A stretch of 22,251 bases of DNA from a virus, in the IMG/VR virus record IMGVR_UViG_3300034072_002240, positions 1 through 22,251 of that record; one strand, written 5' to 3'. The notes under the pieces are model-generated. The model was not told where the DNA came from and ran no database searches. It saw only the letters and a list, made by a program, of their open reading frames with translations. Below, piece after piece: positions 6,174 to 15,473 of the stretch. Each line of letters starts with the position of its first letter. Positions within the stretch are counted from its first letter, which is position 1. A program made the translations under genes and the position numbers.

Positions 6174-6433
6174 TGCTTCGTCTCCCCATCGCTTTCGAAG
6201 CTCTCCATAATCCCGGCCGCTGTCTTGAAGGCATTCGGCAGGGACTTCTTGATGATAGTGATCGCCTCTTTGTCGGAAAGGTTCGTCATCGCCTTCATAG
6301 AAGCGGCAAGGCATACCGTGAGCGCCACGCAAATTGACTGGAACTTGCCCTCGTCATTCAAAAGCTGGGCGGCAGGTGTCTCCGTCCAGTGATTGGAAAC
6401 AGCGGTAGCTATCTCTCGTCGCAGGATGTACAT
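6170..6433 (-). pseudogene. 5'-truncated early phage gene at a deletion junction
   Basis: The frame encodes a credible C-terminal part of about 74 residues (TETPAAQLLNDEGKFQ..., then LSDKEAITIIKKSLPNAFKT). Upstream it continues only as the antisense of the portal gene. No ATG in the believable part has a ribosome site. The given start is merely the first ATG beyond the junction. The original N-terminus and promoter seem to have been removed together with the portal N-terminus. As the first gene of the int operon, its loss probably left the whole operon without its native promoter. Confidence 0.5.
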
Positions 6434-7487
6434 CGGGACCGGTGACAACGATCTGGCAACGCCCTTCAACCGGGCGCTGATCCTCGACGCGGACGAGAAA
6501 TACGAGCGCAAGACCATATCCTTCGCCACGCTGCCAGATGTCATGCAGCAGTTCATCCAGCAGTTCTGCGGCGCTGCTGACATCCCGATGACGCGGTTCC
6601 TCGGCACGGCACCCTCGGGCCTTGGTTCGAATGGCGATCACAGCATGGCCAACTACCATGACCGGATCGCCTCAACACAGTCTCTGGAGATCACGCCAGC
6701 GCTTTACCGGCTGGATGAATGCCTGATCCGCTCGGCTCTTGGCTCTCGCCCGCCGGAAATCTTCTATACCTGGGCGCCGCTGGAGCAGATGAGCGAGAAG
6801 GAACAGGCAGAGATCGGCAAGATGAACGCCGAGACGGCCGAAATCCTCGATCGAACGGGCCTGTTCACAAAGCCGGAACTGCGGACCGTCGTCGGTAATC
6901 AGTTCATCGAGAATGGGTTCTATCCCGGCCTTGATCAGGCGATGGCTGAAACCGGCGATAACTTCGACCTTGGCGAAGACGACGACAACCAGGACGACCA
7001 GCAGCGGCCACCACGGCAGGCAGCAAACGATGCCGCGCCGCGCACGCTGTATGTGTCCCGCAAAGTCGTAAACGCCGCTGACATCATCGCATGGGCGAAA
7101 GAGCAGGGGTTCAAGACCACGCTGCCTGCCGATGATCTGCATGTCACCATCGCCTACAGCCGTGATCCGGTTGATTGGATGAACGTGGGCGAAAGCTGGG
7201 CCGGAGAATTGAAGGTCGCAGCTGGCGGTCCGCGTCTCGTGGAACGGTTCGGTGACGCTCGCGTGCTGCTGTTCAAGGCTGCTGAACTCGACTGGCGGCA
7301 CGAGAACATCAAGGCGGCCGGTGCGTCATGGGATCATCCCGAGTACCAGAGCCACATCACCATCAGCTACGACCCGGGTTCGCCTGATCTCCAGAACGTC
7401 GACCCCTATCAGGGTGAGATCATTCTGGGGCCGGAGTTGTTCGCAGAGGTCAAGGAAGACTGGTCTGACAACCTGAAAGAGGAATGA
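6393..7487 (+). CDS. Portal protein (DUF1073), N-terminally truncated, with C-terminal Acb1-like domain
   Basis: This frame encodes the C-terminal part of a DUF1073 phage portal (ISFATLPDVM, then IPMTRFLG, then ITPAL...LI, and FTWAPLEQMSEKE-like text), about residues 13-190. An acidic linker (GEDDDNQDDQQ) leads to an Acb1-like 2H phosphoesterase domain at about residues 217-358. That domain has both H-x-T motifs, H250-V-T and H321-I-T. Acb1 proteins hydrolyse cyclic nucleotide signals of CBASS immunity. DUF1073-Acb1 fusions are known. The usual portal N-terminus of roughly 250 residues is missing. A TGA at 6390-6392 immediately precedes the frame, and neither TTG 6393 nor ATG 6426 has a ribosome site. 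No terminase lies upstream. The portal function is almost certainly lost. Confidence 0.8.
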   Translation: METAVAISRRRMYIGTGDNDLATPFNRALILDADEKYERKTISFATLPDVMQQFIQQFCGAADIPMTRFLGTAPSGLGSNGDHSMANYHDRIASTQSLEITPALYRLDECLIRSALGSRPPEIFYTWAPLEQMSEKEQAEIGKMNAETAEILDRTGLFTKPELRTVVGNQFIENGFYPGLDQAMAETGDNFDLGEDDDNQDDQQRPPRQAANDAAPRTLYVSRKVVNAADIIAWAKEQGFKTTLPADDLHVTIAYSRDPVDWMNVGESWAGELKVAAGGPRLVERFGDARVLLFKAAELDWRHENIKAAGASWDHPEYQSHITISYDPGSPDLQNVDPYQGEIILGPELFAEVKEDWSDNLKEE

Positions 7488-11747: not shown

Positions 11748-12136
11748 TGGCCTACGTTCAGCCGACGCCTGCCACTTTCAAGCTACGATTTCCTGAATTC
11801 GCAGCAGTCAGTGACGCGCTGATCCAGCTTGTCTTGCAGGAAGCCTTCGATGAAGTGGGCGAGACGTGGCTTGAGCGGGATCGGGCTCGCGCCCAGATGC
11901 TGCTCACTGCCCACAAGCTCACCATGGAAGGGGAGCCAGGGCGCAGCGTATCAGGGCAGGGAAGCGCAGGGACAGGCGCCGTTCGCCGCCGCAAGGTTGG
12001 TGACGTCGAGGTCGAGTTTGCCACTCCTGGCTCAGGTGTGGGCGGATTTGCGGCCACTGGCTACACGGCGACAGTCTACGGACAGGAATATCTCGCTCTC
12101 CTCAAAAAGAATTTCCCGTCGCCCATGGTGGTCTGA
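11747..12136 (+). CDS. DUF4054 head-tail connector-like protein
   Basis: This 129-residue protein has the DUF4054 pattern: an N-terminal [21 protein letters not shown] helix, then [24 protein letters not shown], a Gly-rich loop with the V-x-FA-x-P segment, and a C-terminal [16 protein letters not shown]4054 proteins resemble head completion (neck) proteins that join the portal to the tail. The start at 11747 overlaps the previous stop. The normal length and position after the capsid genes support the call. Confidence 0.85.
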
Positions 12137-12549
12137 TGCTTACCTCTCGTGTTGTCCGCAAGGTCTTTGTCAATGTGCCTAGCGTGATAACTGGCCCCAA
12201 GCGGGTCAAGGTGGGGTTCCCTGCCGGCGAGGCTGATGCAGATAACATCCAGAAAGCCATCTGGAACGAGTTTGGCACTCGTGGTGGGGCGTCTGGCGGC
12301 GGCTGGGGCGGTCCGGTTCCGGAACGGCCCTTCATGAGAAACGCGATGCGGGCCACCTACATCAACATCGGCGGCCGCAACTTCGTCGTAGAAGGCTCGA
12401 CCCTTACGCCTAACGTCTTCCTTGATGAAATCCATGCGACGGACTGGATCATCGCGCGCACCGAGGAGGAGACACTCGGCATCCTGCTCAACAACTCCCG
12501 TATCAAGTTCGATGACAGCGGCATGCAGCAGATCGCCTCCACGCATTGA
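12136..12549 (+). CDS. Chimeric gene: HK97 gp10-like connector fused to tail-sheath (DUF3383) fragment
   Basis: This frame encodes 137 residues of two unlike parts. Residues 1-72 look like a gp10-like connector: IWNEFGT, a Gly-rich loop and the typical PERPFMRNAM motif. From about residue 74 (TYINIGGRNF, then FLDEIHATDWIIART, then LLNNSRIKFDDSGMQQI) the text follows the pattern I associate with the C-terminal region of DUF3383 tail-sheath proteins. The join is in frame. The protein then ends abruptly at IASTH beside the truncated nuclease gene. Both parents are incomplete, so neither function should survive. The first start overlaps the DUF4054 stop as TGATG. The sheath assignment is from memory of the family pattern. 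Confidence 0.6.
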   Translation: MLTSRVVRKVFVNVPSVITGPKRVKVGFPAGEADADNIQKAIWNEFGTRGGASGGGWGGPVPERPFMRNAMRATYINIGGRNFVVEGSTLTPNVFLDEIHATDWIIARTEEETLGILLNNSRIKFDDSGMQQIASTH

Positions 12550-12868
12550 CGTCAGCGCCATCTGCGCGGCGGCAGACGGCAACTACCCTGTCATAGCTCT
12601 TCCCCTTGGGGATGCAGAAGGTGGGGCGGGATTGCGCAAGGAACTTGTCGAGAGCATCGGCGCTTGCCTTGCCGCAACGGTAGGCTTCACCAGACGCGGT
12701 GCGGCAGACCTGCCGGGACTCGGGTGCGTCAATGCCATCGAACCGGATACGCTGTCCTGCTATCTCAATCGTATCGCCGTCGACAACTGACGCGCGACCA
12801 GCGATTTCAGCGGCAGATGCCGGGGCAGCGACAGCGACGATGCTGGCAAACAGAATGGCAGCCTTCAT
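12503..12868 (-). CDS. Secreted thermonuclease (SNase-like), C-terminally truncated
   Basis: This 121-residue protein has a clear signal peptide (MKAAILFASIVAVAAPASA) followed by an SNase domain: VVDGDTIEI, then IRFDGIDAPESRQ (Arg and Glu equivalent to R35 and E43 of staphylococcal nuclease) and SYDRVVAVC (Arg equivalent to R87). After DVNAW the expected C-terminal region of about 30-40 residues is replaced by RRSAACRCHRT, which is the antisense of the sheath-fragment gene. The catalytic residues survive but folding is doubtful. ATG 12868 overlaps the upstream stop as ATGA. It was presumably a periplasmic or secreted nuclease carried as an accessory gene. Confidence 0.8.
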   Translation of the reverse strand: MKAAILFASIVAVAAPASAAEIAGRASVVDGDTIEIAGQRIRFDGIDAPESRQVCRTASGEAYRCGKASADALDKFLAQSRPTFCIPKGKSYDRVVAVCRRADGADVNAWRRSAACRCHRT

Positions 12869-13188
12869 CTGCGGACGTCTTCCGCCACGATGACGCCACG
12901 GCAGCCGGAGTGTTCCCCGCTGGTGACAAGTATGGTGTGAGACGCAAAACCCATGTCCGTGATGACGGCTTTCGTTCCTACAGGGACCATGCATGACAAG
13001 AGCCGGAATACCAGTGTCGGATTTGATTTGTGGACACCAGCCTGGATGAGCTTGAACGCCTCGCTCTGGGCGTCCGAGTCCTTCCAGACGAATACGTTTT
13101 CAGAGCCCGATCTGCCCAAGGTCACCTCCTGAGCAGCGGCAGGGCTGGCAACCAACATTGCAATTGAAGCGACTAGAGCAGCGCGCAA
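12865..13188 (-). CDS. Small secreted protein with TTG start
   Basis: This 107-residue protein has a signal peptide ending in ASPAAAQ and a mature domain of about 85 residues. Two Cys residues (LLSCMV and HSGCRG) could form a disulfide. The middle is beta-rich (TKAVITDMGFASHTILV). The family is not recognised. The TTG at 13188 has a perfect GGAGGA site six bases ahead, whereas no ATG is available at the N-terminus. It forms a two-gene minus-strand unit with the nuclease, divergent from the tail assembly chaperone gene 22 bases away. Both products appear exported, suggesting an accessory cassette in the tail module. Confidence 0.65.
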   Translation of the reverse strand: MRAALVASIAMLVASPAAAQEVTLGRSGSENVFVWKDSDAQSEAFKLIQAGVHKSNPTLVFRLLSCMVPVGTKAVITDMGFASHTILVTSGEHSGCRGVIVAEDVRR

Positions 13189-13210
13189 ATAAATTCCTCC
13201 GGAGATTCGA

Positions 13211-13669
13211 ATGGCCGATCGCAAGATAGATGGGATTGAATATCATGTCGATCCACTCCCAGCAGTTGAATCTATCGAACTTTATGCGGATATCCTGCGA
13301 TTGCTCGGGCCAGCGGCCAACCGTCTTCCCGCGATAATCCTGTCGTTGCAGGCGGATAGCGAGGGACAGCAAATGATGGCCGACGTGGCGGCGCTCGCCG
13401 CGATATCGGATATCCTGTCGCGGGTGTCCAGTCAGGAAGTGTCAGCGCTGGCTGCGCGGATTGTCGGGATCGCTTCAATCAAGCGCAAGTCCGGCAACTA
13501 CGAACCGTGCGACCTCGATGGTGACTTCACGGGAAAGCTCGGCAATGTCGTCCCGCTGATGAAGTTCGTTCTTGAGGAGCAGTTCCGCGATTTTTTTATC
13601 GGAAAGCGCCCGAGTGGAATCATCGGGCTGCTGATGGAGGTCTTACAGACCGCGAAGTCCGGCAAATAG
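13211..13669 (+). CDS. Tail assembly chaperone, short (unshifted) form
   Basis: This 152-residue protein lies directly before the tape measure gene, where myo- and siphoviruses place the tail assembly chaperone. The text (DGIEYHVDPLPAVESIELYADILRLLG near the start) is like chaperones of this phage group. GGAGA precedes the ATG at 13211. Residues GDFTGKLGNV...FVLEEQFRDFF lead into a slippery T run. Downstream of it the -1 frame stays open to the tape measure start, which supports a gpG/gpGT-type pair. The short form coats the tape measure during tail assembly. Confidence 0.8.
   Translation: MADRKIDGIEYHVDPLPAVESIELYADILRLLGPAANRLPAIILSLQADSEGQQMMADVAALAAISDILSRVSSQEVSALAARIVGIASIKRKSGNYEPCDLDGDFTGKLGNVVPLMKFVLEEQFRDFFIGKRPSGIIGLLMEVLQTAKSGK
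13591..13632 (+). promoter_or_regulatory. Programmed -1 ribosomal frameshift signal
   Basis: The heptamer T TTT TTT occupies 13591-13597 in the correct phase (13591 is the third base of a GAT codon). Seven bases later a stem pairs AGCGCCCGA (13605-13613) with 13623-13632, with one bulged T. Slippery site, spacing and hairpin all fit the standard -1 frameshift layout. Confidence 0.75.
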
Positions 13670-13839
13670 CGCCGAACGTCAATCTCTTCATCTACCGGCC
13701 GGCCTTATCAAACCCGCCGCTTTGCAGCTTCCTTGAATGCGAGAAGATCACGCTCAAGCAGTTGCTCGACATGCACGAAATACTCGACCTCAGGGTCGCC
13801 GCCGTTGAAAAAGCCAACAGGATGAGAGCCCAGAAATGA
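13597..13839 (+). CDS. Tail assembly chaperone, -1 frame extension (GT-like domain)
   Basis: This is the 80-codon -1 frame entered at 13597. It has no start codon with a ribosome site at its beginning, but encodes sensible protein (LTDREVRQIAPNVNLFIYRP, then a KITLKQLLDMHEI helix and EKANRMRAQK). It ends at TGA 13837-13839, overlapping the tape measure ATG as ATGA. Joined to residues 1-129 of the short form it gives a product of about 209 residues. The long form would link the tail tube to the tape measure. Confidence 0.7.
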   Translation, partial: YRKAPEWNHRAADGGLTDREVRQIAPNVNLFIYRPALSNPPLCSFLECEKITLKQLLDMHEILDLRVAAVEKANRMRAQK

Positions 13840-15473
13840 CTATAGCCGGCGAACTCGTCAACATCCTTGGTTTCAAGCTTGAGGGTGAACAGAACCTCAA
13901 GAAGTTCAACCAGGGCATGGACGACGCCGAGGCCAGCGCGAAGAAGACTTCGGATAAGGTACGCGCGCTGGGCATCGCCGCTGGAGCAGTGGCAACCGGC
14001 GCCATCGCTGTCGGAACGACAGCCGTCAAGAACTTCGCTGCCTTTGAGCGCGAGATGGGCCGGATTGGCACCACGGCAGGCGCCACCGTTGCAGAGACCG
14101 TAAAGGCGTCCGATGACGTGCAGGCCTTGGCAAAGCGGTTCGCGCTGCCTTTGGAAGAAGCCGTAAGCGGCCTGGACACGCTCACAGCATCGGGGATGAA
14201 CCTTGACGAGGCTATGGCGTTCCTGCCGTCGGTTCTCGCTACGGCTCAGGCCTCTGGCGCGGCCGTCAACGATATCGCCAACACGGCGCAGAAAGCGTCT
14301 TCGGCTCTGAAAATTGAAGCGGGCGACCTGCAGAAGGCGTTCGACATCATGGTGTCGGGTGGCAAGGCTGGTCAGTTCGAACTGAAAGATATGGCAGCGT
14401 CCATCCCGACGCTGGCGAACTCGTTCGCGAACCTCGGATATTCAGGGCAGGAGGGCCTGCAGAAGCTTATCGCGATCCTGCAAACTCTTCGCGAGGACAC
14501 CGGATCGGCCGGGCAGGCGGCAACGCAGGCGCAGAACATCTTCTCGAAAATGTTCAGTCAGGAGACGGAAAAGAACTTCAAGGACTTCGGCGTCAACATC
14601 CGCGACGAAGTCGACAAAGCGGTCAAGACAGGCGAGGGCGCGATCGAGGCCTACGTCAGGATATCCCGGCGTGTCATGCAAGATAACCCGAGCGCCAAGC
14701 TTGTTGACCTGTTTGCCGATCAGGAATTTCAGTTGGGTATGCAGTCGTTGATGACGAGTGCAGATTCCTACGAGAAGTTTCTAAAAGCCGTGAACGGCGG
14801 CGAGGTAGACGGTACGGTGTTTCGTGATCTAGAGCGCTTCACCACCGACACGACCGCATCTATCCAGCGACTGAGCAGCTCTTGGGACGGATTTATGAAG
14901 TCGCTGGGCGGGTCGATTGCGCCAGCAGCAAGCGGTGCCTTAGACGCGCTCACCAATGAAATCAGCTATCAGGACGCTGTTTCCAAGGAGTTGGAGAGGC
15001 AAGGCTACAGTTTTCTTGGACGTCAGCTCTGGATGGGGAGCAAGGAGCAGAAAGACGCCCTTGCGCGCGCCGGCGGCTATGTCCCGAACAATGATCCAAT
15101 CGCGCAGGAAGCGGCAAAAAGCGCGCCGGCGGCTTACAAGGCCCTTGGACGGCGCCCATCGCGCCCAATGAGTAAGACGCCCGATACCGCTTATGGTTAC
15201 AATGAACCCGCGCAGAAAGAGATTCCGGCGAACGTCTTTGCCGGTTTTGAGGCTCGCATGGACAAGCTGGCGGCAGTCGCAACCAGCACGCCACCAGAGG
15301 TCAACAATACGGTCAACGACAGCAGAGACCAGTCCACAGTCGTCAATGTTGGCGGGGTGGTGGTCAACGGCGTTCCCAACGTATCCGCGGCTGTTGGCGG
15401 CGCTGTAGGCCGCGCCGTCGGGCAAGCCGCTGTTGGTCGCGCCTCGCGCTTTGAGAAGGACGATGCATTCTGA
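13836..15473 (+). CDS. Tape measure protein
   Basis: This 545-residue protein has the features of a tape measure. An N-terminal helical region with a small hydrophobic stretch (IAAGAVATGAIAVGTTAV, about residues 48-65) is followed by the conserved PhageMin_Tail region (FEREMGRIGTTAG, then ALAKRFALPLEEAVSGLDTL, then ASSALKIEAGDLQKAFD). A Gly/Ala/Val-rich C-terminus (GAVGRAVGQAAVG) ends it. It sets tail length and occupies the tube. The modest length implies a short tail. The start overlaps the frameshifted chaperone stop; the end overlaps the next start. Confidence 0.9.
   Translation: MTIAGELVNILGFKLEGEQNLKKFNQGMDDAEASAKKTSDKVRALGIAAGAVATGAIAVGTTAVKNFAAFEREMGRIGTTAGATVAETVKASDDVQALAKRFALPLEEAVSGLDTLTASGMNLDEAMAFLPSVLATAQASGAAVNDIANTAQKASSALKIEAGDLQKAFDIMVSGGKAGQFELKDMAASIPTLANSFANLGYSGQEGLQKLIAILQTLREDTGSAGQAATQAQNIFSKMFSQETEKNFKDFGVNIRDEVDKAVKTGEGAIEAYVRISRRVMQDNPSAKLVDLFADQEFQLGMQSLMTSADSYEKFLKAVNGGEVDGTVFRDLERFTTDTTASIQRLSSSWDGFMKSLGGSIAPAASGALDALTNEISYQDAVSKELERQGYSFLGRQLWMGSKEQKDALARAGGYVPNNDPIAQEAAKSAPAAYKALGRRPSRPMSKTPDTAYGYNEPAQKEIPANVFAGFEARMDKLAAVATSTPPEVNNTVNDSRDQSTVVNVGGVVVNGVPNVSAAVGGAVGRAVGQAAVGRASRFEKDDAF

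Follow-up and report, generated by a model that had tools for sequence, protein, structure and literature searches.

Evidence for a probable programmed -1 ribosomal frameshift in the gene for a Phage_TAC_15 tail assembly chaperone in a myovirus prophage

The chaperone locus in a damaged tail module

The 22,251-base stretch of DNA analysed here (the window) comes from a myovirus prophage and carries its tail assembly chaperone gene, placed before the tail tape measure gene (Table 1). The zero-frame chaperone, TAC-N, belongs to the Pfam family PF21822 (Phage_TAC_15), which it matches at E = 3.4e-22 with 79.7 bits against a cut-off of 22, and it also matches PHROG 1613, tail assembly chaperone. 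Its AlphaFold2 model has a mean pLDDT of 79 and resembles viral tail assembly chaperones in BFVD, including the 'tape measure chaperone' of phage Moogle; a fold search of the model against the PDB gave no meaningful match.

The zero frame reads GAT TTT TTT ATC across the slip, with GAT TTT TTT as codons 127-129. Read directly, the heptamer T TTT TTT therefore has the P- and A-site phase X XXY YYZ, as the initial annotation had claimed, and it is the only run of seven T or seven A in the window. The seven-base spacer described there was found as well. From the slip onward the -1 frame meets no stop until a TGA at 13837-13839, which shares bases with the tape measure ATG beginning at 13836, in agreement with the earlier account of a frame running to the tape measure start. 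The fusion product predicted from the sequence, TAC-NC, has 129 + 80 = 209 residues, the length that had been anticipated. The slip site coincides with a drop in model confidence over residues 128-137, the end of the folded N-domain, and the C-domain is modelled with low confidence (pLDDT 63). The C-domain encoded in the -1 frame corresponds, over window positions 13687-13833, to phrog_4364, a PHROG of unknown function. A Mu-type -2 frameshift was rejected, the -2/+1 frame stopping after 13 codons at a TGA (13632-13634). The overlapping ORFs precede the tape measure gene as in lambda G/GT, an arrangement present here on the tape measure side; in intact relatives the tube gene precedes the chaperone ORFs, and in the window it is deleted.

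Table 1. Features of the chaperone locus and the adjoining tail module, with positions in the window.
Feature	Position	Strand	Remarks
Chimeric neck/sheath remnant	12136-12549	+	Two deletions; N-terminal part of sheath and whole tube gene missing
Zero-frame tail assembly chaperone (TAC-N), 152 aa	13211-13669	+	Pfam PF21822 Phage_TAC_15
Shine-Dalgarno-like GAGGAG, proposed stimulator	13574-13579	+	11 nt upstream of heptamer
Slippery heptamer T TTT TTT	13591-13597	+	In phase; codons 128 and 129, Phe-Phe
-1 frame extension, 80 aa + stop	13597-13839	+	C-terminal domain of TAC-NC; matches phrog_4364
Spacer, 7 nt, heptamer to stem	13598-13604	+	Direct reading
Bulged 9-bp stem-loop, possible accessory stimulator	13605-13632	+	Core conserved in close clade only
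Tail tape measure protein	13836-15473	+	Start overlaps -1 frame stop (ATGA)

Two deletions appear, from comparison with related sequences, to have taken the tube gene and most of the sheath. Three longer relatives contain 1.81 kb that is absent from the window at 12353/12354; this deletion fuses the neck protein in frame to a C-terminal stretch of the sheath, and the two nucleotides CA are shared at the junction of the chimeric ORF. Relative to two of these three the window lacks a further 0.83 kb at 12538/12539, with loss of the sheath end and the tube gene. Compared with G2, the window also lacks approximately 19 kb between 5394 and 6466, before a portal-like gene whose ORF begins at 6393; sequence matching G2 starts at 6466. 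The window is known as a 22-kb virus record without reads, and the deletions may be an artefact of assembly. Two minus-strand ORFs, one of them thermonuclease-like by eye, lie between the sheath remnant and the chaperone (12503-13224); they are common to G3 and G4 and are not aligned in G2.

The initial annotation had also suggested that the decay is recent. The window has no indel of its own between 13211 and 18464, and third positions account for 67 of the 83 window-specific substitutions in the surviving genes, compared with 84 of 102 in an undamaged relative, so that the remaining tail genes still show purifying selection. As the third-position share equals that of the undamaged relative, most of the divergence of the window predates the loss of function, and a recent decay is thereby supported. 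With the tube gene deleted, the chaperone products of this copy could not build a working tail.

The slip site and the -1 domain among relatives

In the window and 18 distinct relatives, TTTTTTT or TTTTTTC occupies the same codons and is followed by a homologous -1 extension, in which the motif APN(L/V)N...RP...P...HE..(D/N)L recurs. The extension of one metagenome fragment (L012, 2-494) is partly divergent: it is normal up to APNVNL and divergent thereafter, and is apparently rearranged or chimeric. Rhizobium and Aminobacter phages, cyanophage Pam3 and relatives from IMG/VR share the heptamer position and the -1 domain of the window, while an Aureimonas flava prophage has C CCT TTT at the place of the heptamer, still of the form X XXY YYZ. 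A search of genome contigs gave no match with a single protein as query and two matches when an alignment was used.

The distribution of substitutions follows the two frames. In the window's close clade, 79 of 105 variable sites before the slip site are at third positions of frame 0, and after the zero-frame stop 22 of 29 are at third positions of frame -1; the 72-base overlap of the frames holds just 10 variable sites. All 19 distinct sequences, the window among them, have TTT as the P-site Phe codon, whereas two further conserved Phe columns have it in 4/19 and 2/17; these counts, drawn partly from related sequences, are not independent.

The -1 domain as query also reached Chaseviridae phages (Spp001, VPs20, PP101 and PM1), Aeromonas phages and others. 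Seven of these phages were read, and the chaperones of the five that were scanned match PF21822. All seven have the heptamer in phase and the -1 domain behind it (six TTTTTTC, one TTTTTTT). PP101 gp66, annotated as a separate ORF, matches phrog_4364 at E = 6.5e-20. When IMG/VR was searched with the -1 domain, 60 distinct loci were recovered, one of them cut by a contig end. An in-phase X XXY YYZ heptamer lies just upstream of the domain in every one of the 59 assessable loci, which bears out the conservation that the initial annotation had proposed to check. It is TTTTTTY in 51 and TTTTTTA, TTTTTTG, CCCTTTT or AAATTTT in the remainder; such a change of heptamer type among relatives is expected if slippage is what selection acts on, and it indicates selection on the class of heptamer.

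A complementary search, started from the N-domain of the Chaseviridae-like set, recovered 69 distinct loci. In 65 of them TTTTTTY is present and the -1 frame continues for 39-89 aa beyond the zero-frame stop. The remaining four comprise one locus with an indel in the chaperone reading frame, two that carry the heptamer but a short extension, and one (L123, from 523) that reads GAT TTC TTC, with no canonical heptamer and an open -1 frame. The last appears to be the only real exception seen, and as a single metagenomic sequence it may contain an error. Relatives lacking the heptamer but keeping a second frame with its own start had been named as the observation that would overturn a frameshift. 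L123 provides the first half of this description, a -1 frame kept behind no canonical site; a second gene with its own start was seen in none of the 59 loci, and the frameshift reading was not overturned.

Codon choice was also examined in 107 representative loci, a set gathered by a pattern requiring a heptamer and hence a measure of codon choice and of the upstream element, not of heptamer frequency. The P-site codon is TTT at 100 of these 107 sites, whereas elsewhere in the same ORFs there are 296 TTT and 392 TTC codons. In Pseudomonas phage PB1 (L048, 14866-14919) the depositors annotated a potential ribosome slippage site; in this Pbunavirus it lies at a baseplate wedge gene and not at the chaperone.

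The upstream element and the downstream stem

The GAGGAG upstream of the heptamer, absent from the initial annotation, has counterparts throughout the family. Across the 107 divergent loci an SD-like element is spaced 10-11 nt before the heptamer, and the mean anti-SD energy is -7.5 kcal/mol, compared with -4.9 kcal/mol (sd 0.31) under synonymous recoding, in which the same peptides were encoded with codons drawn from each locus (z = -8.4). None of 100 randomisations reached so low an energy, and three control stretches gave no anti-SD signal (z about +1). SD motifs also exceed expectation in number (75 vs 39.9, sd 4.2), but the pentamer list was chosen after viewing the sequences, and for this reason the energy-based test is preferred. 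Tested alone, the GAGGAG of the window is not significant, and nor are most of the elements in the 19 sequences tested singly; selection appeared in the larger set only. The spacing of 11 nt in the window lies within the approximately 10-14 nt expected of a dnaX-like element.

The initial annotation had described a bulged 9-bp stem downstream of the heptamer as part of the cassette. The stem is present in the window, with the arms AGCGCCCGA (13605-13613) and TCGGGC-T-GCT (13623-13632) and one bulged T. At -15.9 kcal/mol it is moderately better than shuffled sequences (z = -2.2; z = -1.5 for a longer stretch), and in the window and its close clade z is about -2 to -3. Several distant relatives have no downstream stem, and among 113 divergent loci the stretch after the heptamer shows no more structure than do two of the three controls (mean z -0.43 and -0.54 downstream, -0.42 and -0.60 in these controls). 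The similar values in these controls speak against the stem as a family-wide conserved stimulator; it is local to the window's clade, and its importance had been overstated. We propose that the conserved stimulator candidate is the upstream SD-like element rather than the downstream stem.

Decoding of the two frames and comparison with known systems

Homopolymer runs can support slippage by RNA polymerase, and the T7 of the window is such a run; bases added or removed during transcription would then yield mixed mRNAs. However, many relatives with T6C, and others with CCCTTTT or AAATTTT, in the same place retain the capacity for tandem tRNA slippage and not the long homopolymer, and the selected SD-like element before the slip site points to the ribosome, leaving this explanation highly improbable.

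It is even less probable that the -1 frame is a separate small gene, translated from its own start or by coupling, although in the Erebus, N17, PP101 and PM1 records the 3' part is entered as a hypothetical protein of its own. Conservation of the -1 frame begins at the heptamer (R2 and W7 of the extension). The window's -1 frame contains no ATG, GTG or TTG ahead of extension residue 55, which lies inside the conserved domain; two relatives (L019 and L021) have no start codon before residue 73, and 49 of 82 representative loci have none between the slip and the core motif. The starts annotated in Erebus, N17, PP101 and PM1 cut into the conserved domain. The absence of start codons and the position of the annotated starts together exclude an ordinary second gene as a general explanation, and a second ORF in the -1 frame that lacks a usable start is the pattern of lambda G/GT. 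It is scarcely credible that the frames were separated by a sequencing error, or by a decay mutation that broke a once-continuous gene: the prophage is clearly damaged near the chaperone, but the same frame relation is found in complete, intact phages and in dozens of independent assemblies.

The chaperone gene of this prophage thus very probably carries a site of programmed -1 ribosomal frameshifting like that of lambda G/GT, and the cassette recognised in the initial annotation is upheld by its phase, its relatives and its substitution pattern. Most ribosomes would stop at 13669 to give TAC-N. A minority would arrive at U UUU UUU with the P and A sites each occupied by Phe-tRNA and with the upstream GAGGAG probably paired to the anti-Shine-Dalgarno sequence of 16S rRNA; both tRNAs would then re-pair one base back, and translation would continue to 13839 to give TAC-NC. 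In lambda, the first domain of the chaperone binds the tape measure protein and the second binds the tube protein (PMC5009743). By analogy, TAC-N may coat the tape measure protein while the additional C-terminal domain of TAC-NC may recruit tube subunits.

We further consider it likely that in Phage_TAC_15 phages as a group (alphaproteobacterial, Chaseviridae and related) the chaperone frameshift is stimulated by an SD-like element 10-11 nt before a changeable X XXY YYZ heptamer. If so, the chaperone ratio in this lineage would depend on pairing between mRNA and 16S rRNA, in contrast to phage tail genes thought to shift without stimulators. The frameshift itself would give the widespread 'unknown' frame phrog_4364 a function as the C-terminal domain of a tail assembly chaperone, a product omitted or mis-split in many phage records, including those of Pam3, Chaseviridae and Kleczkowskavirus. 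The relatives also form a clean natural series, with changing heptamers at the same place, a selected SD element and a variable stem, in which one can ask which parts of a bacterial frameshift signal matter.

The mechanism itself is known, the -1 frameshift of tail chaperones of the lambda G/GT type being well established in long-tailed dsDNA phages (PMC5009743). What is newly traced is the Phage_TAC_15 case, mostly unannotated; an upstream stimulator in a tail-chaperone frameshift is a mildly new part. The open-access literature yielded no report of a frameshift in Phage_TAC_15 phages, nor any of selection on an SD element at a tail-chaperone frameshift, weak indications in both cases as most subscription papers lie outside that scope. 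A point against the frameshift here is that U UUU UUU shifts less readily than A AAA AAG in E. coli constructs (PMC5009743); in two HK97-like cases the measured frameshift efficiency was 6-7% (PMC3711429).

The window differs from lambda G/GT in its protein family (Phage_TAC_15), its U-rich heptamer and its selected upstream SD-like element. E. coli dnaX, the standard SD-stimulated case, shares the upstream SD-like element before an X XXY YYZ heptamer and, with the window's clade, a 3' stem; it is an unrelated gene with an A AAA AAG site, and its stem is an established stimulator whereas that of the Phage_TAC_15 loci is not conserved. Agrobacterium phage Milano, compared by its description only, is another myovirus of alphaproteobacteria, and a chaperone, putatively frameshifted, is annotated ahead of its tape measure gene; the parts of that account available to us do not describe a heptamer or stimulator (PMC6588377). 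The closest precedent is found in Pseudomonas phage Adele and its relatives; Adele is a myovirus for whose TAC-N and TAC-NC a -1 frameshift at a poly-T site has been proposed (PMC12846349). Adele differs in its GTTTTT motif, in belonging to another phage group (Vandenendeviridae, with Andersonviridae) and, as far as the accessible portion of its description goes, in having no upstream stimulator described; as in the phages considered here, the 3' part was mis-annotated as a separate gene (PMC12846349).
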